From assembly GCF_002000365.1 (NCBI RefSeq), contig NZ_MVBK01000059.1, forward strand, positions 1-64,000: a DNA stretch of 64,000 nucleotides, read 5' to 3'. The stretch is from Thioalkalivibrio denitrificans. Lineage in GTDB: Bacteria; Pseudomonadota; Gammaproteobacteria; Ectothiorhodospirales; Ectothiorhodospiraceae. The notes beneath the pieces were generated by a model. That model worked only from the letters and a program-made list of their open reading frames with translations. It was not told where the DNA came from and did not search any database. Positions 29,204 through 49,130 of this stretch are shown here, piece after piece. Position numbers and translations under genes: made by a program. The stretch's first letter is position 1. The number at the start of each line of letters is the position of its first letter.

Positions 29204-29267
29204 TCGTGTCTCTCCCTTGGCTGGTGCGGCCGGGCATTATGTGGCGCCGACCGTCATCGGAAGAGAC

Positions 29268-29328
29268 TATATAGTGGGGTCTGGAGGCCCGTGTACCCCA
29301 ATATCTTGGGTTCATTGACCTGGGTCAA
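29268..29328 (-). promoter_or_regulatory. FNR/Dnr-type promoter of nrdD
   Basis: A perfect TTGAC-CTGG-GTCAA palindrome (29315-29328) matches the FNR/Anr/Dnr family pattern TTGAT-N4-ATCAA with C for T at the fifth position of both halves. An AT-rich TATATA (29268-29273) in this GC-rich DNA could be the -10 element; it would place the box near -61 of a start around 29261, a class I geometry. The gene starts at 29203. Confidence 0.65.
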
Positions 29329-29334
29329 CAGTAT

Positions 29335-29868
29335 CACCACGAAGCTCACGAAGGACACGAAGAAAAGATCGTTCTCTCGCGAAGACGCAAAGCCCGCCAA
29401 GAAAAGCGTTTGATCATAGGGCGCCCCGTGGGCGCCGCCGGGCCTCGGTCAGGGCCCGAGAGGCGGGCATGGCCCGCCCTATGAATCTGTTTTCTTGGCG
29501 GGCTTCGCGGCTTCGCGAGAGAAACGTCTTTCGTCAGAGAATGCGGCCAAGGGAGATTCCGGCAGCAAAATCGATAAAGGGTACGGAAGCAACCTGACCA
29601 GCTTTCCTTCGTGCCCTTCGTGTGCTTCGTGGTAAGGCGTTTTTCAAACCACCAGAACCAACCGCAGCCACAGGGCCTCGGTCGGGGCCCGAGAGGCGGG
29701 CACGGCCCGCCCTATGAATCTGTTTCCTTGGCGGGCTTTGCGACTTCGCGAGAGAAACGTCTGTCGTCAGAGAATGCCGCCAAGGGAGATTCCGGCAGCG
29801 AGATCGACAAGGGTACGGAAGCAAACCGATCAGTTTTTCTTCGTGTTCTTCGTGCGCTTCGTGGTTAC
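29335..29868. repeat. Cluster of 'cttcgtgg'/'cttggcggg' dispersed repeats
   Basis: Blocks in one orientation at 29335-29410 and in the opposite one at 29490-29526, 29604-29636, 29723-29760 and 29838-29868; the last two sets are a near-copy of the preceding two. The 670-base gap between nrdD and the radical SAM gene holds only these blocks and the nrdD promoter. Confidence 0.85.
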
Positions 29869-29874
29869 CTGAAC

Positions 29875-30489
29875 TCAACCCACCTCATCCAGGACACGGC
29901 GGCGGAAGTTGACGCCCAGGTCCCGGGCGATGGCCTCGCAAGCCTGGATATCCAGACCAGGCAGACCTTCGATGGCGGTGATGGTGACGTCCGGCACATG
30001 GCGCCGCGCGTGGCGCACGAAATCCAGCACCGCTCCCCAGGCGCCGGCGTGTTGAGGTCGGCAGTGGACATCGTAGACGGCCGGATCCTGCCCGTTCAGG
30101 GAGACGGACAGAGCGTCGATCAGGCCCGCGAAGCGGGGTGTCACGTCCTGTCCGTGCACCAGGTTCGCCAGCCCGTCGGTGTTGATGCGCACCCGCCGCG
30201 CACCCGCCGTACGCACAGCGGCAGCCACCTGGAGAATCTCGTCCAGGCGCAATGTGGGTTCCCCCAGGCCGCAGAACACCACCTCGTCCCATGCGCCCGC
30301 ATCCCCGGCGGCAGCGATCATCTCCTCCACGTCCGGTTCGTCGCGCATGCGCAGGCCGTGGCCCTTCACCTCCCAGACCTTGTTGAACTTCGGGCAGAAG
30401 GCACAGCGCAGCGTGCACCGGTTGGTGACGTTGATGTAGCGCTGGTTGCGGATGGTGTAGCCCACCGCCGGGGTTTGGGTATCCTGCAT
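29875..30489 (-). CDS. Radical SAM protein, TatD-associated family
   Basis: 204 residues. The radical SAM motif is NVTNRCTLRCAFCPKFN (CxxxCxxC, about 25-32) with VVFCGLGEPTLRL and RVRINTDGLANL further on. The short length and the pattern match the family often linked or fused to TatD-type nucleases (TIGR04038-like). No tatD gene is adjacent here. Substrate unknown. It is bracketed on both sides by the dispersed repeats. Confidence 0.82.
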   Translation of the reverse strand: MQDTQTPAVGYTIRNQRYINVTNRCTLRCAFCPKFNKVWEVKGHGLRMRDEPDVEEMIAAAGDAGAWDEVVFCGLGEPTLRLDEILQVAAAVRTAGARRVRINTDGLANLVHGQDVTPRFAGLIDALSVSLNGQDPAVYDVHCRPQHAGAWGAVLDFVRHARRHVPDVTITAIEGLPGLDIQACEAIARDLGVNFRRRVLDEVG

Positions 30490-34180: not shown

Positions 34181-34690
34181 TCAGCCCAGGTTCCCGCGCA
34201 GGTTGTCCCAGTTGATCTGGTCAAGGTCCATGACGCGTCCGCCATGGCGCTCGGCGAAGGCCTCGGCGTCGGCTCGCTGCGAGAACGGTGCGGGGGAATG
34301 GCCCATGGCGCCCTGCTGGTCGTGGCCTATGACGTAGACGGCCGCCTGGGCATCCATATAGGCCTCGTCGGAAGGCTCATCCCAGCCGGTGTGCGACAGG
34401 TCGTGCACGTAGAGCTTCTCGATGGCGGGTACGGATTCCGGCTGCCAGGACCACGCCAGCAGGTCCTGCACGGAACAGAATGGCAGCACCCGACCATCAC
34501 GCAGGCAGGCCTGCCCCTTGGGGCCGGGGAAACGCACCACTGTCATGCCGCACAGGGCGCACTCGTGCTCGTCGGTGAGCAGGATCGGTGAGCACGCGGT
34601 GGCTGCGGTCTCCCGGTCACCACCACAGGCCACCAGACTGAGGGTGGGCAGGGCAGCGAGCAGCGTAAGGACCTGGCGTCGTGTGGGCAT
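34181..34690 (-). CDS. nosL: NosL copper chaperone lipoprotein
   Basis: 169 residues with a lipoprotein signal (LTLLAALPTLSLVAC, Cys near residue 22). The NosL motif ECALCGMTVVRFPGPKGQA (about 43-61) carries the Cys and Met ligands that bind Cu(I), then FCSVQDLLAW. NosL supplies copper for the CuZ cluster of NosZ from the outer or inner membrane. Last gene of the nosRZDFYL operon, 45 bases after nosY. Confidence 0.95.
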   Translation of the reverse strand: MPTRRQVLTLLAALPTLSLVACGGDRETAATACSPILLTDEHECALCGMTVVRFPGPKGQACLRDGRVLPFCSVQDLLAWSWQPESVPAIEKLYVHDLSHTGWDEPSDEAYMDAQAAVYVIGHDQQGAMGHSPAPFSQRADAEAFAERHGGRVMDLDQINWDNLRGNLG

Positions 34691-34735
34691 GGCGGGGAAT
34701 CTCCTGTGCGATGGCAGACACGGACAAGGGAATGT

Positions 34736-35566
34736 TCAGGTGCGCCGCGCCGCGAACAGCGCCGCGGCCGCGCCTAATGGCACCGCGATCCAGGCCACCA
34801 GGATGCCGAGCAGCAGGGACAGGGGGTAGTCCTGGTCCTGGAATACGCTCAGCAGGCCGCTGCTCGTCGCGGTTTCCTCGAAGCCGATCAGGTTGACCAG
34901 ACGGAACACGTCAGTGGGGTTGAACAGGAGCAGCAGGCGGAACACGCCGCCGTCGACGCGCCCCTCGGTGCCCACCAGCACGCCCAGCAGCACCAGGTCG
35001 TAGACCAGGACGAACAGGAACCATACCAGCAGGGCCAGTCCGGCCGCCCGGGCCTTCTCCCGGGTGACCACGCTCACCAGGTAGGCCAGTGCGAGGAAGG
35101 TCAGCCCCAGCAGGATGGCGCTCGCGATAAACAGGCTGAATGGACCCGCAAGATTCGCAAAGGTGGCCTGTTCCGCCAGCAATCCAATCAGTACGGCGGC
35201 AATGCCGAAGCCCAGGACCGTCGACAGGGCCAGGATGGCTCCGTGGCCCAGAAACTTGCCGGCCAGCAGGCCCGTGCGGCTCAGCGGATAAGTCATGAGC
35301 AGCAGCAGGGTGCCCTGCTCGTCCTCGCCCACGATACTGTCGTAGGCGAGCATCAGGGCGATGAGGGGGATCAGAAAGACCGCGAGGCTCGCCAGGCTGA
35401 CGATGGTGGTGGAGATGCGAGTGAAGCCCACCTCGCCGGAGGCGGCGGCCCCGAACCAGGCCAGCCCCATGGCCAGCAGGGCAAAAGCCAGGGTGATGGC
35501 CAGGATCCAGCGGTTGCGCATGCCGTCGCGGAACTCCTTGCCGGCTACGATGAAGACCTCACGCAT
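34736..35566 (-). CDS. nosY: NosY ABC transporter permease
   Basis: 276 residues with about six membrane helices and the N-terminal amphipathic start MREVFIVAGKEFRDGMRNRW common to ABC-2 permeases. EDEQGTLLLLMTYPLSRTGLLAGKFLG (about 82-108) is the characteristic loop. With NosF and NosD it forms the NosDFY complex needed to mature CuZ of nitrous-oxide reductase. Its start overlaps the nosF end by eight bases. Confidence 0.94.
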   Translation of the reverse strand: MREVFIVAGKEFRDGMRNRWILAITLAFALLAMGLAWFGAAASGEVGFTRISTTIVSLASLAVFLIPLIALMLAYDSIVGEDEQGTLLLLMTYPLSRTGLLAGKFLGHGAILALSTVLGFGIAAVLIGLLAEQATFANLAGPFSLFIASAILLGLTFLALAYLVSVVTREKARAAGLALLVWFLFVLVYDLVLLGVLVGTEGRVDGGVFRLLLLFNPTDVFRLVNLIGFEETATSSGLLSVFQDQDYPLSLLLGILVAWIAVPLGAAAALFAARRT

Positions 35567-36491
35567 CGCCCTGTCCTCCGTTGCGGCCTTGCGCATCGAA
35601 GTAGGCGTAGAGCGAGTCGAGCGTCGGCGGCTCCATGCCGATGTCGCTCAAGCGCTTCTCGGCCAGCAGGGTACGCAGCACGTCCAGCTTCTCCGAGGGT
35701 GCCGTGCTCAGATGCGTGCGTCCGTCGCCGTTGGTCCTCACCTCTACGCCGCGTTCGATGAGCCGGCCGCGCAGCGCCTCGCTGATCTCTTCGCTGCGCA
35801 CATGGATCCGCAGCGGCAGGCCGGCTTCCTGGCGCAGGGCGTCGATGGTGCCCCAGGCCAGCAGCCGCCCCTCGCAGAGAATGGCGACCCGGTCGATGTG
35901 TCGTTCCACGCCCGGAAGCACGTGGGAGCTGAGGATCACGCTGGTGCCCTTGCCGCGCAGTTGGTCGATCATGCCGTAGACGTCCCGCACCGCCATCGGA
36001 TCCAGACCCACTGTGGGTTCGTCCAGCAGCAGCAGGCGCGGCTCGCCAAGCAGGGCCTGGGCGAGCCCGAGGCGCTGCCGCATGCCTTTGGAATAGGTGC
36101 GTACCCGACGCCTGGCGGCGTGACCCAGCCCCACGCGTTCCAGCAGCCGGTCGGCCTCGGGCACCGGCACCCGCTTGAGGCGCGCGAAGTAGCGCAGCAC
36201 CTCGCTCCCGCTCAGGTTGTCATAGAAGCTGACGTTCTCCGGCAGATAGCCCAGCTGCAGGCGCAGGTTGCGGGCCTGGTGCCCGCGCGGATCCTCGCCG
36301 AGCACGCTCACGCGGCCGGCCGTGGGCGCCAGGACGCCCAGCACCAGCTTCATCATGGTGGACTTGCCCGCGCCGTTGTGCCCCAGCAGGCCCAGCACCT
36401 CGCCGGCCTCCACCGTGAGGCTCAGCCCTTTGAGGGCCTCCACCGAGCCGAAGCGGCGCTCCACCTGTTCCAGACGTACGATGGGGCTCAT
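35559..36491 (-). CDS. nosF: NosF ABC transporter ATPase
   Basis: 310 residues. Walker A GHNGAGKST (about 38-46), ABC signature YSKGMRQRLGLAQALL, Walker B LLLLDEPTVGLD and switch His in SSHVLPG are all present. It powers the NosDFY complex that delivers copper and sulfur species to apo-NosZ. The ATG at 36491 overlaps the nosD stop (ATGA) and its end overlaps nosY, so translation is coupled. Confidence 0.95.
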   Translation of the reverse strand: MSPIVRLEQVERRFGSVEALKGLSLTVEAGEVLGLLGHNGAGKSTMMKLVLGVLAPTAGRVSVLGEDPRGHQARNLRLQLGYLPENVSFYDNLSGSEVLRYFARLKRVPVPEADRLLERVGLGHAARRRVRTYSKGMRQRLGLAQALLGEPRLLLLDEPTVGLDPMAVRDVYGMIDQLRGKGTSVILSSHVLPGVERHIDRVAILCEGRLLAWGTIDALRQEAGLPLRIHVRSEEISEALRGRLIERGVEVRTNGDGRTHLSTAPSEKLDVLRTLLAEKRLSDIGMEPPTLDSLYAYFDAQGRNGGQGDA

Positions 36492-37786
36492 CCCACTTCC
36501 TCCAGCGAACGGGTCGGGCGCATCAGCGGGGCGCTGTCCTTCACGCCCGGCGGGCGCAGGACGGGAAACGTGCGCTGCACCCAGCGCAGGAGTTGTATAG
36601 CGGGACTGTTCATGAGCACGCGCGCCATGGGGTACTTCCAGAGCAACCGGTCCACCGAGTCGTTGGGCTCGTGGGGCACGTCACCGAGGCCGTCGCCGCT
36701 CAGGTCCCAGCCCACGTAGTCGCTCCAGTAATTGCCACGGCCGTCCACCGACCATTCCTGCTGACGGGTGGCCACGTACATGACCTGGCTGCGGTTGTTG
36801 ACCAGCGCATTGTTGTAGATGCGGTTGCCTTCCGATCCGGCGGTCAGGTGGACGCCGATGTCCGTGCCGGCCAGGAGGTTGTCGCGGATGGTGTTGTGCT
36901 GGGAATTGTATACAAACAGCGCCTTGCCTTCGGCGCCGGCGATGGTCTGCCCGCCAGTGCCCGGTGTGGTGCCGTGGCGGATGCCGATGGCCGTGTTGCT
37001 CTCGATGGTGGAGTAGGTGATGTCGTTGAGCAAGAAACCGTAGTTTTCGTCGCCCATCGCGCGGTTGCCTACCACGGTGAGATGACGCGAGGCCATGAGG
37101 GCAAAGCCCGCCCGGTTGTCCCGGGTGCGATTGCCCATCACCTCGTTGTGATGCGAAAACATGTAATGGATGCCGTAGCGCTGGTCATGCAGGGTGTTGC
37201 CCAGCAGCCGATTGTGGTTGCTCACGTCGATGTAGATGCCGTCGCGGGCCTCCCAGACGATGTTTCCCGCAACGACTGCGTGGTTCACGTTGAACAGGTG
37301 AATGCCGTTGCCGCGATCCTGGGAGCGCAGTGCCGTGTCTCCGCTGATGCGGTTATCCGCCACGACCGCGTGGGGCGCGCCGTCCAGCCAGATGCCGAAG
37401 CCGCGGGCATGGATGCGGTTGCCGATCAGTCGGACCCGCTCGGCCTGTTTCTCCACGAAGATGGCGGCATCCATCGCGGTGAGATCCGCGCCGTCATTGC
37501 GCAGAGTGAGTCCCTGTATCACCACGTCCGGCGCCGCTACCACCAGCACGCGGCCCTGCCCGTCACCGTCGAGCACAGCATCGGACTCGGCAGTGAGTCT
37601 CAAGGGGACCTCGACGCGCACACCGCCTCCGTGGGTCCCGGATTCAAGGTGCAGCCAGGCCCCCGGCTGTGCGTCCGCAAGCGCCGTGGCAAGCTGGCCC
37701 GGGGCGACGCGTAGTGGGGTGTCGGCGGCAGATACACTGCCGGCCCAGAACAGGGCCAACAGGGCGAAAATTCGGATGATGCTCAT
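36488..37786 (-). CDS. nosD: NosD periplasmic copper-maturation protein
   Basis: 432 residues with a signal peptide (IRIFALLALFWAGSVSA) and a right-handed beta-helix of repeated NRI/GNxxxxN units across about residues 90-330 (for example HNRLLGNTLHDQRYGIHYMFSHHNEVMGN). This is the NosD/CASH fold. It binds NosZ in the periplasm and passes copper to CuZ. ATG at 37786 is chosen because it places the signal peptide at the N-terminus. It begins 65 bases after nosZ. Confidence 0.95.
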   Translation of the reverse strand: MSIIRIFALLALFWAGSVSAADTPLRVAPGQLATALADAQPGAWLHLESGTHGGGVRVEVPLRLTAESDAVLDGDGQGRVLVVAAPDVVIQGLTLRNDGADLTAMDAAIFVEKQAERVRLIGNRIHARGFGIWLDGAPHAVVADNRISGDTALRSQDRGNGIHLFNVNHAVVAGNIVWEARDGIYIDVSNHNRLLGNTLHDQRYGIHYMFSHHNEVMGNRTRDNRAGFALMASRHLTVVGNRAMGDENYGFLLNDITYSTIESNTAIGIRHGTTPGTGGQTIAGAEGKALFVYNSQHNTIRDNLLAGTDIGVHLTAGSEGNRIYNNALVNNRSQVMYVATRQQEWSVDGRGNYWSDYVGWDLSGDGLGDVPHEPNDSVDRLLWKYPMARVLMNSPAIQLLRWVQRTFPVLRPPGVKDSAPLMRPTRSLEEVG

Positions 37787-37850
37787 GGGAATGGGCGCGG
37801 AGGCGGCGCGCTCGCACCGCCCCCGCGCCACGCCCTCCGTTACAAGGTGG

Positions 37851-39743
37851 TCAGGCCTCGACAATCATGCGACCGGCCATTTCCATGTGCAAGGCATGGC
37901 AGAACCAGTTGCAGTAGTACCAGTACACCCCGGCCTTGTCGGCCGTGAAGGTGATCGAGGAGGTCTGAAGCGGGCTGATCTCCATGCTCACCCCGTGATC
38001 GGTCACGCAGAAGCCGTGGGTCAGGTCCTCGATCCGGTCCAGGTTGGTGACAACCACCGTGACCTGGTCGCCCTTCTTTACGCGGAACTCGGAAAGGCCA
38101 AAGGAGGGGGCCACCGAGGTCATGTAGACGCGCACCTTGTTGCCGTCCCGGATGACCGTGTTGTCGGTTTCCACGTTGACCCCGTCGCGCCGGGCCATCT
38201 CGATGGTCTCGGCGAAATAGGGGTCATCCCGGTCCCAGATCTGCTTGGTGGTGATCTGGTCACGGCGCACAATGACCGCGTCGTGCGGCTCCGCAAACGT
38301 GGGGGTGTCGTGCACCAGCACCATCTCGTCGCCCGAGATGTCGATCATCTGGTCGCACTCGGCATGCAGCGGGCCCACGGGGAGGAACCGGTCCTTGGAG
38401 AACTTGTTCAACGAGAACAGCCACTTGCCGTCGGCGTCCTTGGACTCTGCCAGCGAGGCGTGGTTGTGGCCCGGCTGGTAGTGGACGTCGATCTTCTGGA
38501 CGATGTAGTCCACATTCTCACCGTTGTAGTGGCGCACGGCGTTTTCCATGTTCCACTTGACCACCTGGCTGTCCAGGAACAACGTGGTGTAGGCAAAGCC
38601 CCTGCCGTCGAAGGTGGTGTGCAGCGGCCCGAGACCGAGCTCCGGTTCGCCGACCACTACGTCACGCTCGTTCTGCAGCTGACCCGCGAAGAGGTCATCC
38701 AGCTTGGCGATGTCGATCATGGTAACGGTGGGTGAGAGCTTGCCGTTGGCGATAAAGTACTTGCCGTCGGTGGACGTGTTGAGACCGTGGGGGTTCTTGG
38801 GCACCGGGATGTAGCGGGTGACGTTCAGCTCGGACGTCTTGCGACCGTCCACCACGGGCACGTCGGAATCGCCGATGGTGGTGAAGTTGCCGTCACGCAC
38901 CGCCTTCTCGATGTTGGCGATGTTGAACACCACCACGTGGTCACGCTCCGCCTGCATCTTTCCGGCCAGGGTCACCGCGTTCTCGGAGTTGTAGCAGGTG
39001 GAGGCGGTGTACTTGCCGGTGTAGTCGGCGTCCGTGTTGTCCAGGTTGCCGTCCACCAGCACCTGCCACTTGACCTCCATACTGTCTGCGTCGATGGCGC
39101 TGTAGAGCGTACGGTAGTTTTCCGTATCGTCCAGGCCGCGACCATCGTTGGGCTGCGGGATCAGGTACTCGCCGTTCGCGAACACGTAACCGGTACGCGG
39201 TGCCTTCTGCAGGCGCAGGCCGTGGACGGCCTGGACGTTGGGCACGGTGACCATCTTGTCCGTCTTGAACACGTCAAGCCGGATGCGGGCCACACGGGTG
39301 TTGGCCTTGTCGTTGATGAACAGGTACCGGCCGTCGTGGCTGCCCTCCGTGTAGCTTACATGCGGATGGTGCGCATCACCGTTGGTGAAGCGCCAGCTGT
39401 CGCCCATGATGCGCTTGGACTCGTCGGTCATGCCCCAGCCGCTGGCCGAGCAGTGGTTGAACACCGGGATGCGCATGATCTCGCGCATGGACGGCACACC
39501 GTAGACGCGCACCTCGCCGGAGTGCCCGCCACTCCAGAAGCCGTAGTATTCGTCCAGTTCGCCCAGCGGGACGTGGGTGCTCTGCGCGCCGCCGCTGTTG
39601 CGTGCAGCGGTTGCCTCGCCGCTCTTCATGAGCGCGGCGCCTCCACCTGCCGCACCTAGCATGCCGACGGCGGCCGTGGCGCCCAGAAAGCGCCGGCGTC
39701 CCGGGCTTTCCAGGGCCTTCCTTTCATCGTTTCGGTCTGTCAT
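37851..39743 (-). CDS. nosZ: Nitrous-oxide reductase, clade I
   Basis: 630 residues with a Tat signal (GRRRFLGATAAVG), marking clade I. The N-terminal seven-bladed propeller holds CuZ, with His ligands in NGDAHHPHVSYTEGSHDG, QAVHGLRLQ and PLHTTFDGRG; the C-terminal cupredoxin holds CuA, with WYYCNWFCHALHMEM. It reduces N2O to N2 in the periplasm, the last step of denitrification. It is the second gene of nosRZDFYL, 30 bases after nosR. Both copper sites appear complete. Confidence 0.98.
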   Translation of the reverse strand: MTDRNDERKALESPGRRRFLGATAAVGMLGAAGGGAALMKSGEATAARNSGGAQSTHVPLGELDEYYGFWSGGHSGEVRVYGVPSMREIMRIPVFNHCSASGWGMTDESKRIMGDSWRFTNGDAHHPHVSYTEGSHDGRYLFINDKANTRVARIRLDVFKTDKMVTVPNVQAVHGLRLQKAPRTGYVFANGEYLIPQPNDGRGLDDTENYRTLYSAIDADSMEVKWQVLVDGNLDNTDADYTGKYTASTCYNSENAVTLAGKMQAERDHVVVFNIANIEKAVRDGNFTTIGDSDVPVVDGRKTSELNVTRYIPVPKNPHGLNTSTDGKYFIANGKLSPTVTMIDIAKLDDLFAGQLQNERDVVVGEPELGLGPLHTTFDGRGFAYTTLFLDSQVVKWNMENAVRHYNGENVDYIVQKIDVHYQPGHNHASLAESKDADGKWLFSLNKFSKDRFLPVGPLHAECDQMIDISGDEMVLVHDTPTFAEPHDAVIVRRDQITTKQIWDRDDPYFAETIEMARRDGVNVETDNTVIRDGNKVRVYMTSVAPSFGLSEFRVKKGDQVTVVVTNLDRIEDLTHGFCVTDHGVSMEISPLQTSSITFTADKAGVYWYYCNWFCHALHMEMAGRMIVEA

Positions 39744-39773
39744 GACGTCACCTCTTTAATGGTTAAAAGGCTG

Positions 39774-41936
39774 CTAGCTCTTTGCGGTTGAAGCAGCCTG
39801 TTCCTCGATCCGGATGACCGGATATTCGCCACCTTTCGCCCTTCCCGCCGAGATGCTGGCCGCCTTCTCTCGCCGCTTGCGGCGGGCGATCAAGGGCGGG
39901 CACTTGCGGTCGTTCCAGTAGGTCACCTGGCAGTCCAGGCAGTAGTGGCATTCGTTGGCGTTGATGCGTCCGTCCGGATGGATGGCGCGCACCTCGCATT
40001 CATGGGCGCAGATCTGGCAGGGTGTCCCGCACTCCTTGTGGCGCCTGAGCCAGTCGAACAGGCGGATGCGCGCAGGGATGGCGAGACCCGCCCCGAGCGG
40101 GCACATGTACCGGCAGAAGAACTTGCGGTTGACCACGGAGATGGCCAGCAGGATCCCTGCGTAGAGTACGAATCCCCATTCGCGCTGGAAGCGCAGTGTG
40201 ACCGCGGTCTTGAACGGCTCGACCTCGGCATAGACCTCGGCGGTGGAGAGCGAATGCAGCGAGATGGCGAACAGGACGAGCAGGATCATGTACTTGATGG
40301 CCCAGAGCCGCTCGTGCACGGCCCAGGGCAGCTCGAATTGGGGCACCTTGAACTTGCGCGAGACCTCGTTGATCAGTTCCTGCATGGCACCGAACGGGCA
40401 CAGCCAGCCGCAATAGACACCCCGGCCCCAGAGCAGCAGGGTGGCCGCCACAAAGGTCCATAGGATGAACATCATGGGGTCCATCAGGAAGGTGTCCCAC
40501 TTGAAATCACGGCCCAGCGAATTGGTGAAGGTGAAGATGTTGACCACCGAGAGCTGCGCCAGGGCATACCAGCCGATGAACACCACGGTGTAGATCAGGA
40601 AGACATGACGAATCCGCAGCAAGAGCTTCGGCCGGCGTGCCAGCACGTCCTGGAACATCAGTATGAACACCAGCAGCGTGAGCCCGATGCCCAGCACCAC
40701 GATGTGCATGACACGGTCTTCCCAGACCGTCACCCACAGCGGCCGGTCGTCGTCGACCGCGATGGCGGGCTCGGGCGGCTCCGGATAGCTGAACCAGGCC
40801 TCCGGCGGCGTATACATGAGCGGGAAGTTGACGAAGGCCGAGTCGAGGGCCCCCACCTGCCGGCGCACCAGCAGCTCGATCTCCCAGGGGCGTCCCGGGT
40901 CGAAGCCGTGCTCCGATCGCACCACGAAGATGTCGCGCTCGATGAAATGCGGCGCGCCCTCGGCAGCGATGTTGGGCGCACGGATAAGGTCCGTGTCGCG
41001 GAACTGGATCGCGCGGTCGCCCTGAAGCAACTGGATGCGATCGAAGATGCCGCCGCGTACGAACCCGGAGCCCTTGAACGAGTAACGCCCCGAGGCCATG
41101 AGCAGGATGGCGTGCTCATCCTGCTCCAGGCGCCCCATGATCCGCTCGTAATGGGCATCGCCGAGCAGGTTGCGGCCCGCCGTGGGCGCGTTCAGGTAGG
41201 CGGCGTGGAAGTCGATGAAGATCTCGTCCTCGGCCCCCGGCGGGGCGGTCTCCCGGCCCTCGGCCTCGGTGCCGATGAATGCCTCGTCCACCTCGCCGCG
41301 GGTCAGATCCAGGCGTCCGACGGCGCCCGCTTCGAGCAATTCGTTCCAGGTGGCAGGTTCGAACACGTCCTCGCGCACCGTGGCCGGTTCCCGTACAGCC
41401 AGTGCTTCCGGGTCGACCAGTCCGTGGGCCAGAGCGATGCGCCGCGCGCTGCGCATGATGCCTTCGCCCATGACCACTACCGTGACCGTGGCCCCGGACA
41501 CCGCATCCACGTACTGGTAGCCCTCGCGCTGGCGCGGCGAGATGCCGACACGCACCCGATCCTTGATGGTGCGCGTGAGATACTGGTTGGCGAAGTCCAC
41601 CAGGCGCTGCTCGGGGATGCCCACCAGCATGATAGGTTCGCTGTGCTCGAGGACCCGCACGCCGACGATCATGCCGGTCATGTCCAGCGCCACCAGCATG
41701 TTGACGGGCTCGCCGGAGTAGGCGGGGATGGGGGCCACGTCGTTGGTCTCGAACAGCAGCCCGATCTGCTCCTCACCCCGGTAGACGGGCCGGGCGGGCG
41801 GATCCCCGGCGGGCTCCCCGAGGCGATCCGCTTCCGCAAAGAATCGCTCCCAGTCGGCGCCCGCGGGCAGTGCCAGGGTCAGCACGAGCAACGTCAGGAT
41901 GAACAGGGCCAGTCGTGATGTGATGATGCTGCGCAT
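39774..41936 (-). CDS. nosR: NosR membrane flavoprotein
   Basis: 720 residues: signal/first helix (8-28), periplasmic FMN-binding domain with the covalent flavin site in AVSGATVTVVVMG (about 145-157), five or more membrane helices, then polyferredoxin-like CxxxCP motifs (CGWLCPFGAMQE, CRYMCPLGAG) and two [4Fe-4S] sets near the C-terminus (CGTPCQICAHECEVRA and NECHYCLDCQ). NosR passes electrons to NosZ and is needed for nosZ expression. The start at 41936 fits the signal peptide. An FNR-type box lies 230 bases upstream. Confidence 0.96.
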   Translation of the reverse strand: MRSIITSRLALFILTLLVLTLALPAGADWERFFAEADRLGEPAGDPPARPVYRGEEQIGLLFETNDVAPIPAYSGEPVNMLVALDMTGMIVGVRVLEHSEPIMLVGIPEQRLVDFANQYLTRTIKDRVRVGISPRQREGYQYVDAVSGATVTVVVMGEGIMRSARRIALAHGLVDPEALAVREPATVREDVFEPATWNELLEAGAVGRLDLTRGEVDEAFIGTEAEGRETAPPGAEDEIFIDFHAAYLNAPTAGRNLLGDAHYERIMGRLEQDEHAILLMASGRYSFKGSGFVRGGIFDRIQLLQGDRAIQFRDTDLIRAPNIAAEGAPHFIERDIFVVRSEHGFDPGRPWEIELLVRRQVGALDSAFVNFPLMYTPPEAWFSYPEPPEPAIAVDDDRPLWVTVWEDRVMHIVVLGIGLTLLVFILMFQDVLARRPKLLLRIRHVFLIYTVVFIGWYALAQLSVVNIFTFTNSLGRDFKWDTFLMDPMMFILWTFVAATLLLWGRGVYCGWLCPFGAMQELINEVSRKFKVPQFELPWAVHERLWAIKYMILLVLFAISLHSLSTAEVYAEVEPFKTAVTLRFQREWGFVLYAGILLAISVVNRKFFCRYMCPLGAGLAIPARIRLFDWLRRHKECGTPCQICAHECEVRAIHPDGRINANECHYCLDCQVTYWNDRKCPPLIARRKRREKAASISAGRAKGGEYPVIRIEEQAASTAKS

Positions 41937-42165
41937 GGTCAATCCGGGATGTGCGAGTACAGCTCTCCGCCGATGTCCGTTCGGGCGTCGTGCGCAGCCT
42001 TCCACTGGGAGGGAGAAACCCTGCGATGCATCCTGTTATCCTCGTGAGTGAGGTCTGTATCCGGTGCAACTTGAGGGGTTCGCGTTCCCTGGGCCGGACT
42101 ACGGATCGCGCGACCTGTCCTCGCATGGCTTGAAACCATGCTAGCGACCCCCCATGGTGGGGCAC

Positions 42166-42179
42166 TTGATTGGGATCAA
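42166..42179. promoter_or_regulatory. FNR/Dnr box between nosR and a small divergent gene
   Basis: TTGAT-TGGG-ATCAA is a perfect match to the FNR/Dnr consensus. For the plus-strand gene at 42239 its centre (42172.5) would be at -41.5 of a start near 42214, with TATCTT at 42202-42207 as -10, a textbook class II arrangement. For nosR on the minus strand it lies 230 bases from the ATG, so it could serve both directions only with a long nosR leader. Confidence 0.8.
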
Positions 42180-43272: not shown

Positions 43273-43352
43273 TGTCAGATGTCAGATGGCAGATGGCAGA
43301 TGGCAGATCTCAGATGGCAGACTGACGTCTAACGTCTGATATCTGACGTCTG
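43273..43352. repeat. Tandem 'cagatgg' and 'gacgtctga' short repeats
   Basis: Several copies of tgtcagatggcagatgg are followed by gacgtctaacgtctgatatctgacgtctga. The tract runs into the end of ubiT: the last residues of that protein (QTSDIRR) and its stop codon lie in the repeat. Confidence 0.8.
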
Positions 43353-43859
43353 AATGCGGTCCAGGCCTGCACGGCGCACGACGCCGATCACCAGGTTTCC
43401 CGGGCCTGTGCCCAGCACCGCCCTGACGTGTGCCTGCCAGTCAAACTCCATGGCGTCGAGCAGGTTCTTGAGGTAGAGCCCTGCCTCGGTCTCGCCCTCC
43501 AGGTCGAGGCGGCGATGGAAGAACAGCGTGTCCGGGTCCTCGATCCGCGCGGCCAGCCGCCAGAAATCCTCCAGCGCGCCGCGGATGCGCACGTCCCAGT
43601 CGTCCGCCCCGCGGGTTCGGCACGGTGTCAGCCGGCGACCGCGCACCAGGAACGTGATCTCGCTGCCGGTGTCGGAGACCGAGAGGCGGATGCGCTTGCC
43701 GTCGAGCGGGTCCAGTTCGTCGGCCAGCGGCTGCCCCTTCAGCAGGTGGTTGACCATGGCGGTGAACACCGCTTCATGCGCCGCATTCGGGGCAGTGCGC
43801 AGGGCGAGCCCCAGAGGCGCCAGCAGCGTAGTGCGTGAGGGCGCGAGGGTCAATTGCAT
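43329..43859 (-). CDS. ubiT: UbiT, SCP2-domain ubiquinone biosynthesis factor
   Basis: 176 residues with an SCP2/sterol-carrier fold: N-terminal helix, HEAVFTAMVNHLLKGQPLADELDPLDGKRIRLSVSD, then ALEDFWRLAARIEDPDTLFFHRRLDLEGETEAGLYLKNLLD, typical of UbiT/YhbT. UbiT binds lipid intermediates for oxygen-independent ubiquinone synthesis with UbiU and UbiV. ATG at 43859 has GGAG eight bases upstream; longer versions (43913, 44054) lack support. ubiT is divergent from ubiU-ubiV, as in many proteobacteria, with a MITE-like element between. The C-terminus is built from short repeat sequence. Confidence 0.88.
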   Translation of the reverse strand: MQLTLAPSRTTLLAPLGLALRTAPNAAHEAVFTAMVNHLLKGQPLADELDPLDGKRIRLSVSDTGSEITFLVRGRRLTPCRTRGADDWDVRIRGALEDFWRLAARIEDPDTLFFHRRLDLEGETEAGLYLKNLLDAMEFDWQAHVRAVLGTGPGNLVIGVVRRAGLDRIQTSDIRR

Positions 43860-43944
43860 GGGTGACTCCGAGGCTGGATTCGTCAGGTGAATCGCCAAGT
43901 CTAGTGCATTCATGGCCGGCTGTGGGTGCGGGCCCGGCTCGCCC

Positions 43945-43958
43945 TTGACACAGGTCAT
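43945..43958 (-). promoter_or_regulatory. FNR-like box upstream of ubiT
   Basis: TTGAC-ACAG-GTCAT differs from a full TTGAC-N4-GTCAA palindrome at one base. Centred at 43951.5, it would sit at -41.5 of a minus-strand start near 43910, leaving a leader of about 50 bases before the ubiT ATG. Control of ubiTUV by FNR is known in E. coli. Confidence 0.55.
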
Positions 43959-44080
43959 GGCAGGGAGGCCCCCATCCGGGTGCAATGATAAGGACCCTGC
44001 CGGACCCCCCCGAGGCATCATGGGTGTCGCGGGACGGGCCTCCGGTTTGCCCAATCATACCTGGAGTTGGCTCCATGCTT

Positions 44081-44394: not shown

Positions 44395-45375
44395 GTGGCG
44401 CTGACCGATCGTGTCCACACCCTCGGTGCCGCGCTGCGCGCGCGTCACGGGGTACGGGTGCACAAGCTGACGGTGAGCGCCGGATTCGTCTGTCCCAACA
44501 TGGACGGCACCCGCGGGCGCGGCGGATGCACCTTCTGCAACAACGCAAGCTTCTCGCCCCAGGGCTACGACGGCGGCGACGTGGCGCGTCAGTTGGCCGA
44601 GGGTCGAGCGGTGATCGCGCGCCGCACCGGTGCGCGACGGTATCTCGCCTACTTCCAGGCCTACACCAACACCTACGCGGAACTGGAACGCCTGCGCGCC
44701 CTCTACGACGCAGCGCTGGCCCAGCCGGGCGTAATCGGCCTGAGCATCGGTACGCGCCCCGATTGCGTGCCCGACCCGGTGCTGGACCTCCTCGCGGCGT
44801 ACCGGGACCGGGGCCACGAGATCTGGCTGGAACTGGGGCTGCAGTCCAGCTTCGACGAGACCCTGGCGCGGGTGAACCGGGGGCACGGGTTCGAGGAGTA
44901 CCGCGACGCGGTGCGTCGTGCCCACCTGCGGGGCCTGGAGGTGTGCACGCATCTCATCGTCGGTCTGCCCGGGGAGACCGAATGGCATGCCCGGGAGACG
45001 CTGAACCGGGTCCTGGAGGCGGGCACGGAGGGGCTCAAGCTCCACCCCCTGCATGTGGTGCGCGGCACGCGCCTCGCCCGGGACTGGCGCGCCGGGGGCT
45101 ACCGGCCCTGGACGCAGGACGAGTACGTGACCACCGCAGCCGATCTGATCGCCATGACGCCCCCCGGCGTGGTCTTCCATCGCCTGACCGCCACCGCCCG
45201 GGCGCCCCTGCTCCTGGCCCCCGCGTGGTGTGCCGCAAAGTGGTCCGTGCTCAACGCCATCGAGGCGGAGCTGGTGCGGCGCGGCACCTGCCAGGGCGGC
45301 GCCTGCACGCGGCCGCGGCCCGCGTGTCCCGGACTGTCGTTCGAATCCCGCCACAAGGAGGCAACCTGCCGATGA
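44395..45375 (+). CDS. Radical SAM protein, YhcC/TIGR01212-like
   Basis: 326 residues. N-terminal cluster region GFVCPNMDGTRGRGGCTFCNN (about 26-46) with the wide-spaced cysteines of this family, IGLSIGTRPDCVPD (about 116-129), WLELGLQSSFDETL and HLIVGLPGETEWHARETL. Family function is not established. GTG at 44395 is the only start giving the full N-terminus. It begins the operon and overlaps ubiU by four bases, which is not the usual ubiUV arrangement and links it to anaerobic metabolism. Confidence 0.85.
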   Translation: MALTDRVHTLGAALRARHGVRVHKLTVSAGFVCPNMDGTRGRGGCTFCNNASFSPQGYDGGDVARQLAEGRAVIARRTGARRYLAYFQAYTNTYAELERLRALYDAALAQPGVIGLSIGTRPDCVPDPVLDLLAAYRDRGHEIWLELGLQSSFDETLARVNRGHGFEEYRDAVRRAHLRGLEVCTHLIVGLPGETEWHARETLNRVLEAGTEGLKLHPLHVVRGTRLARDWRAGGYRPWTQDEYVTTAADLIAMTPPGVVFHRLTATARAPLLLAPAWCAAKWSVLNAIEAELVRRGTCQGGACTRPRPACPGLSFESRHKEATCR

Positions 45376-46382
45376 CACAACCGCCAATGGAACTGGTCTG
45401 CCCGGCCGGCAGTCTGCCGGCCCTGCGTGCAGCCGTGGACAACGGCGCCGATGCGGTCTACGTGGGGCTCAAGGGGCGCACCAACGCGCGCAACTTCCCG
45501 GGCCTCAACTTCGACGTGAACACCCTGCGTCGGGGCATCGAGTATGCCCGCGCCCGGGGCACGAAGGTGTTCATGGCCCTCAATACCTACCCGAGGCCCG
45601 AGGGCTGGGCGGACTCGGTGCAGGTCGTGGATATCGCCGCCGTCGAGGGGGTGGACGCCCTGATCGTGGCCGACATGGGCCTCATGCGCTATGCGGCCGA
45701 TCACCACCCGGATCTGCCCCTGCACCTCTCGGTGCAGGCCTCGGCCACGAGCCCCGACGCGTTGGACTTTTATCGCGAGCGCTACGGCATCCGCCGCGCG
45801 GTGCTGCCGCGGGTGCTCTCCATCAAGCAGGTCGCGCAGGTGATCGCGGGCTGCCACGTGGACGTGGAGGTGTTCGGTTTCGGCAGCCTGTGCGTGATGG
45901 TGGAGGGGCGCTGCATGCTCTCGTCCTATGCCACCGGCGAATCGCCCAACGCCTGCGGTGTGTGCTCTCCCGCGCACGCGGTGCGCTGGCAGGAGACCGC
46001 CGGGGGGCGCGAGGCGCGCCTCAACGGCGTACTCATCGACAGCTTCGCGCCCGGCGAGAACGCGGGCTACCCGGTCGTGTGCAAGGGCCGCTTTCGCGTG
46101 CGCGACCAGGTCTTCTACGCCATCGAGGAGCCCACCAGCCTCAGCACCCTGGACATCCTGCCCGAGCTCTACAGGCTCGGTGTGCGCGCCATCAAGCTGG
46201 AGGGGCGCCAGCGCAGCCCCGCCTACGTGGGCCGGGTCACGCGCGTCATGCGCGAAGCCCTCGACGCCTGCCACAGGGACCCGCAAGGCTTCGTGCCCCG
46301 TCCGGAGTGGACCGCGAGTCTGAACGACATGGCCGAGGGACGCACCCACACCCTGGGTGCCTTTCACAGGGCATGGCAATGA
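45372..46382 (+). CDS. ubiU: UbiU, oxygen-independent ubiquinone hydroxylation subunit
   Basis: 336 residues, U32 peptidase-like family. N-terminal MELVCPAGSLPALRAAVDNGADAVYVGLKGRTNARNF and the cysteine cluster GSLCVMVEGRCMLSSYATGESPNACGVCSPAH plus VCKGR provide [4Fe-4S] ligands as in UbiU (YhbU). UbiU and UbiV form a heterodimer that hydroxylates the quinone ring without O2. ATG overlaps the radical SAM stop; its stop overlaps the ubiV start, so all are coupled. Confidence 0.93.
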   Translation: MTQPPMELVCPAGSLPALRAAVDNGADAVYVGLKGRTNARNFPGLNFDVNTLRRGIEYARARGTKVFMALNTYPRPEGWADSVQVVDIAAVEGVDALIVADMGLMRYAADHHPDLPLHLSVQASATSPDALDFYRERYGIRRAVLPRVLSIKQVAQVIAGCHVDVEVFGFGSLCVMVEGRCMLSSYATGESPNACGVCSPAHAVRWQETAGGREARLNGVLIDSFAPGENAGYPVVCKGRFRVRDQVFYAIEEPTSLSTLDILPELYRLGVRAIKLEGRQRSPAYVGRVTRVMREALDACHRDPQGFVPRPEWTASLNDMAEGRTHTLGAFHRAWQ

Positions 46383-47272
46383 AGCTCGCGCTGGGACCGT
46401 TGCAGTACTTCTGGCCCCGGGAGCGGGTGATGGCCTTCTACGAGGCCGCGGCGGGCTGGCCCGTGGACATCGTCTACCTGGGTGAGACGGTCTGCTCCAA
46501 GCGCCGAGAACTGCGGCCCGCCGACTGGCTGGCACTGGGTGAGAAGCTCGCCGCGGCCGGCAAGACCGTCGTGATCTCCTCGCTGGCCCTGATCGAGGCG
46601 GACTCGGAGCGGCTGAGCCTGAAAAGCCAGGTGGCCGACGGCCGCTTCCCCATGGAGGCCAACGACGCCACGGCGCTCGCCCTGCTTGCCGGGCGCCCCT
46701 TCGTGGCGGGCCCTCACCTCAACACCTACAACCCTTACACCCTCGCGGAACTGGCCGCTCTAGGTGCCGTGCGCTGGGTCGCACCGGTGGAACTGGCCCG
46801 CGACACGGTGGCCGAGTTGCACAGCCGCCGGCCCGAGGGGCTCGAAACCGAGGTACTGGTGTTCGGTCGTCTGCCGCTCACCTTCTCGGCGCGCTGTTTC
46901 ACCGCCCGCGCCCACAACCGCCCAAAAGATGCCTGCGAGCTGGCCTGCCGCGACGACCCGGCCGGCCTGCCTCTGGCGACCCGGGACGGACAGAACTTCC
47001 TCACCGTCAACGGCATCCAGCTCCAGTCCGCCGATCCCGTCAACCTTATCGCCGAGGTGGCCTCGCTGCGCGAAGCCGGGGTGCAGGTGCTGCGCATCTA
47101 CCCGGAGGCGGAGGGCACCGAGGTGGTGGTGCGCGCCTTTCGTGCCTGCGCCGACGGCGCCGCCACGGCGGACGTTGCCCTGGCGCAGATCGCGCCCCAT
47201 TTCACGGGATTCTGCGACGGCTACTGGCACGGTGGCGCGGGCATGGACTGGGGGGGCTCGCCGCAGCCATGA
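46379..47272 (+). CDS. ubiV: UbiV, oxygen-independent ubiquinone hydroxylation subunit
   Basis: 297 residues, U32-like family, shorter than UbiU. Starts MKLALGPLQYFWPRERVMAFYEA; [4Fe-4S] cysteines in YLGETVCSKRREL (about 39) and SARCFTARAHNRPKDACELACRDDP (about 175-194). Partner of UbiU. Overlaps ubiU upstream and the LplA-DUF116 gene downstream by four bases each, marking one translationally coupled operon. Confidence 0.93.
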   Translation: MKLALGPLQYFWPRERVMAFYEAAAGWPVDIVYLGETVCSKRRELRPADWLALGEKLAAAGKTVVISSLALIEADSERLSLKSQVADGRFPMEANDATALALLAGRPFVAGPHLNTYNPYTLAELAALGAVRWVAPVELARDTVAELHSRRPEGLETEVLVFGRLPLTFSARCFTARAHNRPKDACELACRDDPAGLPLATRDGQNFLTVNGIQLQSADPVNLIAEVASLREAGVQVLRIYPEAEGTEVVVRAFRACADGAATADVALAQIAPHFTGFCDGYWHGGAGMDWGGSPQP

Positions 47273-48843
47273 CCGTGCGCACTTGCCGTGTGCTGCGTGA
47301 GGGCACGGCGCCTGGGCCGCGGCAGGTGAATGTTGACCGGGCCATGCTCGCGACCTGCGCATCCCGCGGGAGTGCAACGCTCAGGTTTCATCGTTATCGG
47401 CCCACCGCGAGCCTGGGCCGTGATGAGGCCGTCTGTCACGCGGTGCGGGCCGACTATTGTCGCGAGGCAGGCATTCCCCTGGTACGCCGGCCCACCGGGG
47501 GCGGCGCCCTGTACCTGGATCCGGGGCAACTCTGCCTGAGTCTCACGCTCCCGCGCGCATGGCTGGGTGGGGCCGATGACCTGGTTCGACTCATGGCGCG
47601 CTGCAACGGCGCTGTGGTGGACGCCCTGCGTGGCATGGGTATCCCCGCCGAGGCCGTGCAGCCGAACGACCTGGAATCGGGCGGCCGCAAGCTGGGCGCG
47701 GGTTTCCTGTGCCTGGAGGCGGACGCCGTGCTCTATCAGGCGGTGCTGCTCATGGCCCCCGTGGACATGGAGACCCTGCTCACCGTGCTGCGCGCCCCAC
47801 GGGAGAAGCTGAGCCCGGTGGGCGTGCAGAGCGCGCGGGAACGCTTCATCACGCTCACGGAACTCGACGAATACCTCGGTGTGCCTGCTCCGGGCGCCGG
47901 GGACAGGCTGGAGGACGCCCTGCAGGCGGCCTTTTGCGAAGCGTTCGGGCTGACGGCCTCGCAGGACGAGGGTGCCGAGCAAGCATTGCCCATCCCGCCG
48001 CCGGCGCCCGTGGCGGACGAACTGGAACAGGACTGGAACGCCGTTCGGGATCGCACCTGGCAGGCCTTCGAACCCACCCCGGGCGGCGTGCTGCACCTGC
48101 GCCTGGATCCCGATGTCGACGGTACGCGCATCCGGCATGCGACCCTGGCGGGTGCGGTGCACGTAACGCCGCCCACCCTGCTGGCGGATTTGGCCCGGGA
48201 ACTGACCGTGGCCGCACCCGGCGCCGCCGAGGCGCGGTGGCGCCGGTATCTCGCCGATGGAGAGGTGCAGTTGCTGGGTTTCGAGGCCGGGGATCTGTAC
48301 CGCCTGCTACGGCGTGCGTTGCACCGTGATGACGAGCGGCGGCTGGGCCTGGATACCGAACAGGCCAACACACTGATGGTGCATCCGGCGGGCGGGACCG
48401 ACGCCGCACACGAGATCCTCGAGCGCGCGACGGTGATGCTGGTGCCCTACTGCGCCAAGCCCGCCTGGTGCAAGTGGCGCCACCGGGACGGCTGTCCGGA
48501 GTGCGGCCAGTGCGAGGTGGGCGACGCCTACCGGCTGGCCCGCGAGCGCGGCATGCGGGTGGTGACCATCACCCGGTTTGAGCACCTGCGTGAAGAACTG
48601 GATCAGATGCGCCGCGACGGCCAGCCAGCCTACGTGGGCATGTGCTGCGGCAACTTCTACCTCAAGCGCGCCCAGGCCTTCCGGGACGCCGGCATACCGG
48701 CCGTGCTCATGGACATCAGCGGCGCCAACTGCTACGAGCTGCGCCAGGAAGACCAGGCCTACGCGGGACAGTTCACTGCCGAAGCGCGCCTCAACGGCGA
48801 AGTGGTGGAGCAGGTGATGCGCTGGGTGCCGCGGGTTCGGTGA
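47269..48843 (+). CDS. Lipoate-protein ligase A-like and DUF116 fusion protein
   Basis: 524 residues in three parts. Residues about 1-225 are a lipoate/biotin ligase fold with RRPTGGGALYLDPGQLCLSL and the lysine motif SGGRKLGAGFLCLEADAVLYQ. Residues about 245-365 resemble the LplA accessory domain (GAVHVTPPTLLADLARELT ... GDLYRLLRRAL). Residues about 375-524 are DUF116, rich in cysteines (VPYCAKPAWCKWRHRDGCPECGQC, MCCGNFYLK, ISGANCYEL), which may bind metal or Fe-S. The target is unknown; no lipoyl protein gene is nearby. Overlap with ubiV suggests an oxygen-sensitive or quinone-linked process. Confidence 0.82.
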   Translation: MTVRTCRVLREGTAPGPRQVNVDRAMLATCASRGSATLRFHRYRPTASLGRDEAVCHAVRADYCREAGIPLVRRPTGGGALYLDPGQLCLSLTLPRAWLGGADDLVRLMARCNGAVVDALRGMGIPAEAVQPNDLESGGRKLGAGFLCLEADAVLYQAVLLMAPVDMETLLTVLRAPREKLSPVGVQSARERFITLTELDEYLGVPAPGAGDRLEDALQAAFCEAFGLTASQDEGAEQALPIPPPAPVADELEQDWNAVRDRTWQAFEPTPGGVLHLRLDPDVDGTRIRHATLAGAVHVTPPTLLADLARELTVAAPGAAEARWRRYLADGEVQLLGFEAGDLYRLLRRALHRDDERRLGLDTEQANTLMVHPAGGTDAAHEILERATVMLVPYCAKPAWCKWRHRDGCPECGQCEVGDAYRLARERGMRVVTITRFEHLREELDQMRRDGQPAYVGMCCGNFYLKRAQAFRDAGIPAVLMDISGANCYELRQEDQAYAGQFTAEARLNGEVVEQVMRWVPRVR

Positions 48844-48857
48844 GTTGTTCTTGGTCT

Positions 48858-49130
48858 TAACCACGAAGCGCACGAAGATCACGAAGAACCTCTAAAGCAA
48901 TGTTCTCTCGCAAAGACGCGAAGCCCGCCAAGAAGACACAAGAATATAGACGTTAACCCCCCGTTTTTTTGGAGAACATTAGGCGCCCCATGGTCACCGC
49001 CGGACGCACAGCTATGGCGGAGAGGCGCGCGCGGCCCGCCCTATAAACCGGTTTTCTTTGCGGGCTTCGCGTCTTTGCGAGAGAAACTTTTTAAGCAGTT
49101 CTTCGTGATCTTCGTGCGCTTCGTGGTTAA
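48858..49130. repeat. Inverted pair of 'cttcgtgg' dispersed repeats
   Basis: ccacgaagcgcacgaag... with tctctcgcaaagacgcg... (48858-48942) faces tttgcgggcttcgcgtc... with ttcttcgtgatcttcgtgcg... (49053-49130). The 436-base gap between the LplA-DUF116 gene and the aldolase has no other feature except the aldolase promoter, which could not be placed. Confidence 0.85.

Follow-up and report, generated by a model that had tools for sequence, protein, structure and literature searches.

Introduction

The closest described relative of the protein analysed here is sLpl(AB), the ligase of sHdr-LbpA sulfur oxidation, whose gene belongs together with lipS1/lipS2 and LipT to the set that, in sulfur oxidisers, is reported to assemble lipoate on LbpA (Tanabe et al. 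2023, PMC10332631). Our protein shares with it the LplA-LplB order, the Lys, ND and RRxxGGG motifs and the LipS1/LipS2 companions, and differs in its sequence (~30% identity), in an extra C-terminal DUF116 domain, in standing mostly in ubiUV operons and in having no adjoining LbpA gene. With the canonical lipoate ligases (E. coli LplA, 1x2g; the Enterococcus enzyme, 5iby; Thermoplasma LplA/LplB, 2ars and 3r07) it has the fold, the two-domain layout and the catalytic Lys in common; however, most fusions have Leu (GALYLD) for the His of the canonical YHD motif, DUF116 is added, and the fusion co-occurs with LipS1/LipS2. The third system of reference is the UbiTUV pathway of oxygen-independent ubiquinone synthesis, and ubiU, ubiV and ubiT all lie at one locus in our DNA. 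According to the accessible parts of the papers that define it, this pathway needs only UbiT, UbiU and UbiV, and these parts mention no ligase-DUF116 gene for the locus (PMC6747719, PMC11707229).

In the literature searched, we found no description of an LplA-LplB-DUF116 architecture or of its linkage to ubiUV, and no paper naming both DUF116 and lipoate. To our knowledge, DUF116 occurs widely, and no activity is known for it. It appears mostly in gene lists, and discussion of the family was found only in one paper, which guesses at a flavodoxin-like fold, describes N-terminal membrane segments in archaeal members and gives as another bacterial fusion partner a polyprenyl synthetase, not a ligase (PMC5898192). 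Our protein has its Pfam match and its Cys-richness in common with the DUF116 proteins (PF01976/COG1852) of archaea and some bacteria. In many sulfur-oxidising bacteria the fusion gene closely follows the genes for oxygen-independent ubiquinone synthesis. Both its relatives and the genes that accompany it in the genomes suggest a place in lipoic-acid assembly for sulfur oxidation.

The locus and the domain anatomy of the fusion

The window, which is the whole stretch of 64,000 nucleotides from Thioalkalivibrio denitrificans that was analysed, carries the fusion gene at 47269-48843 on the plus strand (524 aa, ATG start). An earlier note on this DNA had described a lipoate-ligase fold with its accessory domain fused to DUF116 and a four-base overlap with ubiV, and both observations were borne out: the open reading frame has exactly these limits and its start overlaps the ubiV stop in an ATGA at 47269-47272, while the domains were recovered by Pfam, by a family profile and by superposition of an AlphaFold (AF2) model. 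Upstream, on the same strand and overlapping or nearly so, lie ubiV (46379-47272; NF047965, 381.8 bits, cut-off 275), ubiU (45372-46382; NF047963, 533.6 bits, cut-off 440) and a YhcC-like radical SAM gene of the mnmL/ytqA tRNA-modification type (44395-45375; TIGR01212, 361.9 bits, cut-off 180), which overlaps ubiU and is the first gene of the apparent operon. ubiT, with its SCP2 domain, is divergent on the minus strand (NF047962, 123.7 bits, cut-off 46.9); its coordinates, 43329-44054, are those of the longest open reading frame, and the real start is probably downstream.

Around the ubi operon, a nos cluster (34181-42005, minus strand; nosR identified by NCBIfam, nosZ, D, F, Y and L named from sequence) and the nearby class III ribonucleotide reductase genes nrdD/nrdG (27143-30489, minus strand) form an anaerobic island. 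Upstream of nosR, at 42166-42179, stands a perfect FNR/ANR-type box, TTGATTGGGATCAA; no such box with up to two mismatches was found before the ubi operon.

The LplA catalytic domain comprises residues 20-230 (47326-47958), and Pfam LplA-B_cat (PF21948) matched residues 20-199 (6.1e-27, 95.3 bits against a cut-off of 27). It retains the RRxxGGGA motif (R73, R74, G77-79), N133-D134 and, in a GRK motif, K141 (codon 47689-47691), the alignment equivalent of the catalytic Lys of lipoate ligases; these residues are kept in most fusions. No Pfam model fired on the accessory domain (residues 262-362, 48052-48354). Nevertheless, a family profile of 66 relatives compared with the PDB matched two-domain lipoate ligases along positions 7-317, and its positions 261-347 matched the separate LplB subunit of Thermoplasma (3r07_C, 3.8e-9), so the protein reads LplA-LplB-DUF116. 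In agreement, the AlphaFold model (mean pLDDT 93, pTM 0.92) superposes on the lipoate ligases of E. coli, Enterococcus and Thermoplasma (Foldseek 1x2g, 1.9e-22). With a catalytic domain over the curated cut-off, the motifs and the LplB accessory domain all present, the fusion is by sequence and fold a member of the LplA family; its match to the NCBIfam equivalog TIGR00545 is far under the cut-off (77.4 against 280 bits).

The DUF116 domain was matched by Pfam at residues 380-490 (PF01976; 48406-48738; 7.9e-9, 35.6 bits against a gathering cut-off of 25), with a conserved block that extends to about residue 506. Its cluster C395-x5-C401-x7-C409-x2-C412-x2-C415 (48451-48513) is a candidate Fe-S or Zn site and is followed by a C459-C460 pair (CC motif, 48643-48648), in which C460 is invariant, and by the invariant C488 of a G-x-N/T-C-Y-E motif (48730-48732). 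Taken together, seven Cys (C395, C401, C409, C412, C415, C460 and C488) are invariant or nearly so in alignments of 66 to 92 sequences, and from their pattern a metal centre, probably Fe-S, is predicted for this module. Modelled alone with AF2 (pLDDT 92), DUF116 forms an alpha/beta Rossmann-like domain, which agrees with the published flavodoxin-like guess, although it gave no PDB fold match better than E 0.03 and no sequence match to any solved relative. DUF116 is also the best-conserved part of the protein, with a mean pairwise identity among ubi-linked copies of 64% compared to 41% for LplA and 31% for LplB, and ligation may therefore not be the main point. The catalytic Lys is present in 83 of 88 distinct fusions and in 15/15 sLpl(AB). 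The remaining five fusions, four of them ubi-linked and none lip-linked, have R, T or Q in its place and keep the DUF116 Cys (loci L035, L037, L038, L131 and L141).

Conserved coupling to ubiUV

The earlier note had left the linkage to ubiUV to a gene-neighbourhood survey, and a lack of it in related genomes would have counted against its idea. The linkage proved to be conserved over several proteobacterial classes. A full-length fusion was found in 13 of 369 genomes of the class, directly behind ubiU/ubiV in ten. A wider scan of 84,980 species genomes yielded 241 relatives, and the 80 kept came from Ectothiorhodospira, Thioalkalivibrio, Sulfuricella, Hydrogenophilales, Gallionellaceae, Burkholderiales, Acidithiobacillus, several Alphaproteobacteria and one marine euryarchaeon. 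Altogether, 92 full-length fusions (88 distinct) were compared: ubiU/ubiV stood in the locus of 55 (51 distinct), lipS1/lipS2 in 12 and neither in 25, where a copy counts as ubi-linked if the fetched locus (up to ~8 kb) holds UbiU or UbiV; in two cases the distance is 2.5-3.3 kb. The ubi-adjacent copies span Alpha-, Beta- and Gammaproteobacteria and Acidithiobacillia. Furthermore, the fusion starts less than 100 bp from the ubiV stop in 40 of the 45 ubiV-bearing loci (median -4 bp), and the overlap seen in the window is therefore not a chance one. A chance neighbour or a mis-called reading frame was ruled out by this coupling and by 66 aligned homologues.

Such close coupling speaks for a rival reading, in which the ligase fold is reused and the fusion acts directly in oxygen-independent ubiquinone synthesis: an Fe-S or persulfide centre in DUF116 would service the [4Fe-4S] clusters of UbiU/UbiV or feed them electrons or sulfur, and the LplA half would serve only for binding, be it of a partner or of an acyl or prenyl intermediate. 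The four distinct ubi-linked proteins that lack the catalytic Lys and keep the DUF116 Cys speak for it as well, whereas the ligase active site kept in most members speaks against it. In addition, E. coli is known to form ubiquinone under anoxia by means of UbiU, UbiV and UbiT, and no ligase-DUF116 protein is known to take part (PMC6747719, PMC10470549).

Other neighbours were less frequent. The TIGR01212-type radical SAM gene recurs in 24 of the 80 related loci and class III nrdD in 19, and a rhodanese gene adjoins one fusion copy. Three copies from family f122 (L042, L043 and L044) are divergent, stand away from ubiUV and have lost the first Cys of the CC motif; their genomes have UbiU and dsrA and no LipS1. 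Their neighbours are housekeeping genes (PmbA/TldD, MgtE or a citrate transporter) that give no functional clue, and the same holds for most other neighbours in loci with neither context (ClpB, ATP synthase, CcmH, glyoxalase).

Kinship with sLpl(AB) and the lipS1/lipS2 context

LipS1 and LipS2 are the recurrent neighbours in non-ubi loci and were found next to or near the fusion in 12 of them, with a geranylgeranyl-reductase-like LipT in most and a second ligase, of sLpl(AB) type, in many. On a quick full-length tree without bootstrap, the ubi label needs nine changes and the lip label five; the two contexts interleave, and one family thus serves both. In the window the lip genes are not beside the fusion. 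Instead, contig C100 of the same genome holds a complete cluster of sHdr, GcvH-like LbpA, LipS1, sLpl(AB), LipT and LipS2, together with a possible outer-membrane protein named by sequence. This sLpl(AB) is one of four LplA/B-type proteins in the genome, the others being a LipB-sized protein near lipA, the fusion and one more LplA. The genome (G000) also has two dsrA copies, on contigs C99 and C100, the latter shared with the sHdr-LbpA-lip cluster.

A second quick tree without bootstrap was built from the ligase halves of the fusions and sLpl(AB), in which the remaining LplA proteins of these genomes served as outgroup. It unites the fusion halves with sLpl(AB) (SH-aLRT 100) and places the fusions as sister to the sLpl(AB) clade, not nested within it. 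Only the ligase half of the archaeal fusion groups with sLpl(AB) (99); it shares 49% identity with the sLpl(AB) of the window genome, and its DUF116 about 51% with that of the window fusion. DUF116 is thus tied to the sLpl(AB)-type ligase branch, and either its loss in sLpl(AB) or two separate fusion events may account for the present distribution. In two genomes of a marine archaeal order the genes run molybdopterin oxidoreductase, lipS2, lipS1, fusion and LipT-like (L160, 3015-10707; L173, 3358-11053), with Fe-S subunits also present as named from sequence. Among the 21 genomes of this order, the fusion is complete in two and partial in a third. In genome G401, the sole other LplA-type protein found is a 272-aa frame.

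A scavenging lipoate ligase of the ordinary kind, with DUF116 as a passenger, placed behind ubiV as both are useful under anoxia and having no tie to LipS1/LipS2, would account for the LplA-LplB anatomy and motifs and for the 25 of 88 distinct fusions with neither ubi nor lip genes. It is an improbable explanation, as the lipS1/lipS2 neighbours recur in separate lineages, the kinship with sLpl(AB) excludes the other LplA proteins of the same genomes, DUF116 is very strongly conserved, and an association with LipS1 extends to whole genomes, as described below.

Co-occurrence with LipS1 and UbiU

LipS1 was called at E < 1e-40 because its scores, mostly 175-207 bits, fall under the NCBIfam cut-off of 230; the LipS1 of the window genome's own sHdr cluster (196.5 bits) does so likewise. 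With this threshold LipS1 was present in 46 of 50 fusion genomes tested compared to 26 of 369 genomes of the class. Within that class sample, the fusion occurred in 10 of 12 genomes with both LipS1 and UbiU, in none of 14 with LipS1 only, in 3 of 80 with UbiU only (one family, divergent sequences) and in none of 263 with neither. Among UbiU genomes this amounts to 10/12 with LipS1 against 3/80 without (Fisher 2e-9), and among LipS1 genomes to 10/12 with UbiU against 0/14 without (Fisher 1e-5), both values being uncorrected for relatedness. Kinship was handled in sister contrasts only, and many of the compared genomes are draft MAGs. In genus g2 the fusion is present in G322, which has both pathways, and absent from G106 (UbiU only); in g149 it is present in G147 and absent from G259 and G355 (UbiU only); in g123 it is present in G236 and absent from G121 (LipS1 only). 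Contrasts in families f83 and f1 point the same way.

These counts bear on a direct role in ubiquinone synthesis from both sides. UbiU is present in 13/13 fusion genomes of the class sample, including the three with the gene elsewhere, and the dependence on UbiU among LipS1 genomes argues in the same direction. On the other hand, 79 of 92 UbiU genomes lack the fusion, and outside the class sample no UbiU was detected in eight Thioalkalivibrio genomes with the fusion, in the archaeon and in several others. A direct role on UbiUV thus accounts better for the coupling and for the decayed ligase sites but leaves unexplained the copies in genomes where no UbiU was detected, and we regard it as possible though rather unlikely. 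An exclusive tie of the fusion to UbiUV was ruled out by the eight Thioalkalivibrio genomes and the archaeon. LipS1, found in 46/50, is the steadier companion, because in several fusion genomes no UbiU was detected; UbiUV is the commoner neighbour.

Two further candidates were discarded. LipA was found in 53 of the 55 genomes searched for it, which rules out the fusion as a stand-in for missing LipA, and lipoate for central metabolism is presumably made in the usual way. Dsr sulfur oxidation does not discriminate, because many UbiU genomes that lack the fusion have dsrA as well.

Proposed role of the fusion

The reading that we prefer, with a probability of roughly 0.5, is that the fusion is an sLpl(AB)-type lipoate/octanoate:protein ligase with a DUF116 metal module, which takes part in lipoate assembly of the LipS1/LipS2 type and is co-expressed with the anaerobic quinone genes. 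The pathway would be the LipS1/LipS2 branch that provides lipoate for the sulfur-carrying LbpA of sulfur oxidisers, and not the LipA/LipB branch. The LplA half would adenylate octanoate or lipoate and load a lipoyl acceptor, and the tethered DUF116 cluster could assist in sulfur insertion, for instance through renewal of the sacrificial LipS1/LipS2 clusters or through transfer of sulfur or electrons. In lineages that respire anaerobically or are phototrophic, the gene may have moved behind ubiUV and become co-expressed with it, so that its function would be at hand when ubiquinone is made without oxygen. The ligase activity, the acceptor, the cluster type, the role of DUF116 and co-regulation as the cause of the ubi linkage are what we infer from kinship, context and co-occurrence.

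The earlier note had offered two branches, a ligase for a target needed under the same conditions or a ligase fold reused in the quinone pathway, and the first is the better match to a family that is sister to sLpl(AB) and goes with LipS1/LipS2. The linkage to ubiUV stands; the lipS1/lipS2 context and the copies in genomes with no UbiU detected speak against the quinone-centred framing of the note. Several observations nevertheless count against assignment to LipS1/LipS2 assembly. No lipoyl-acceptor gene recurs near the ubi-linked fusions, and the LbpA-like gene seen in two ubi-linked loci is the same sequence. The fusion genomes already hold sLpl(AB) and LipA/LipB-type proteins, which makes the fusion a further ligase without an obvious job. 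Additionally, K141 is replaced in five distinct fusions, four of them ubi-linked, and the three f122 genomes combine a divergent fusion and UbiU with no LipS1.

A more tentative idea than direct action on UbiUV is that LplA-DUF116 is a maturation factor shared by LipS1/LipS2 lipoate assembly and UbiUV hydroxylation, coupling the two through an Fe-S or persulfide centre in DUF116 that would supply clusters or sulfur to both. A mere ecological link, in which sulfur oxidisers use the fusion for some other sulfur function under anoxia (with a further LbpA-like or a Dsr-linked carrier, for instance) and LipS1 and UbiUV correlate only since the organisms have both, could draw on dsrA in the three LipS1-negative fusion genomes, on the archaeal operon with its molybdopterin oxidoreductase and Fe-S subunits as named from sequence and on the rhodanese gene beside one copy, but it is very improbable, as no single sulfur gene recurs near ubi-linked copies and dsrA is common among UbiU genomes lacking the fusion.

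Should the fusion belong to LipS1/LipS2 lipoate assembly, a component of that pathway has so far been missed; should it act on UbiUV, a maturation factor confined to certain lineages would serve anaerobic ubiquinone synthesis. In both cases, the data suggest a genetic tie between sulfur oxidation with lipoyl carriers and oxygen-free quinone supply. Furthermore, the function of DUF116 becomes testable because its fusion partner is a ligase from a defined pathway and its presence tracks two defined pathways.

Repeats downstream of the fusion

Directly 3' of the fusion, nested inverted repeats occupy positions 48857-49130, with arms of 40 and 35 nt that are 93-94% complementary. No exact copy of a 21-mer from this repeat was found in any locus outside the window's own stretch. 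Within the window the 21-mer occurs at nine sites on both strands (up to three mismatches; none expected in shuffles), and the repeat looks like a dispersed palindromic repeat element.
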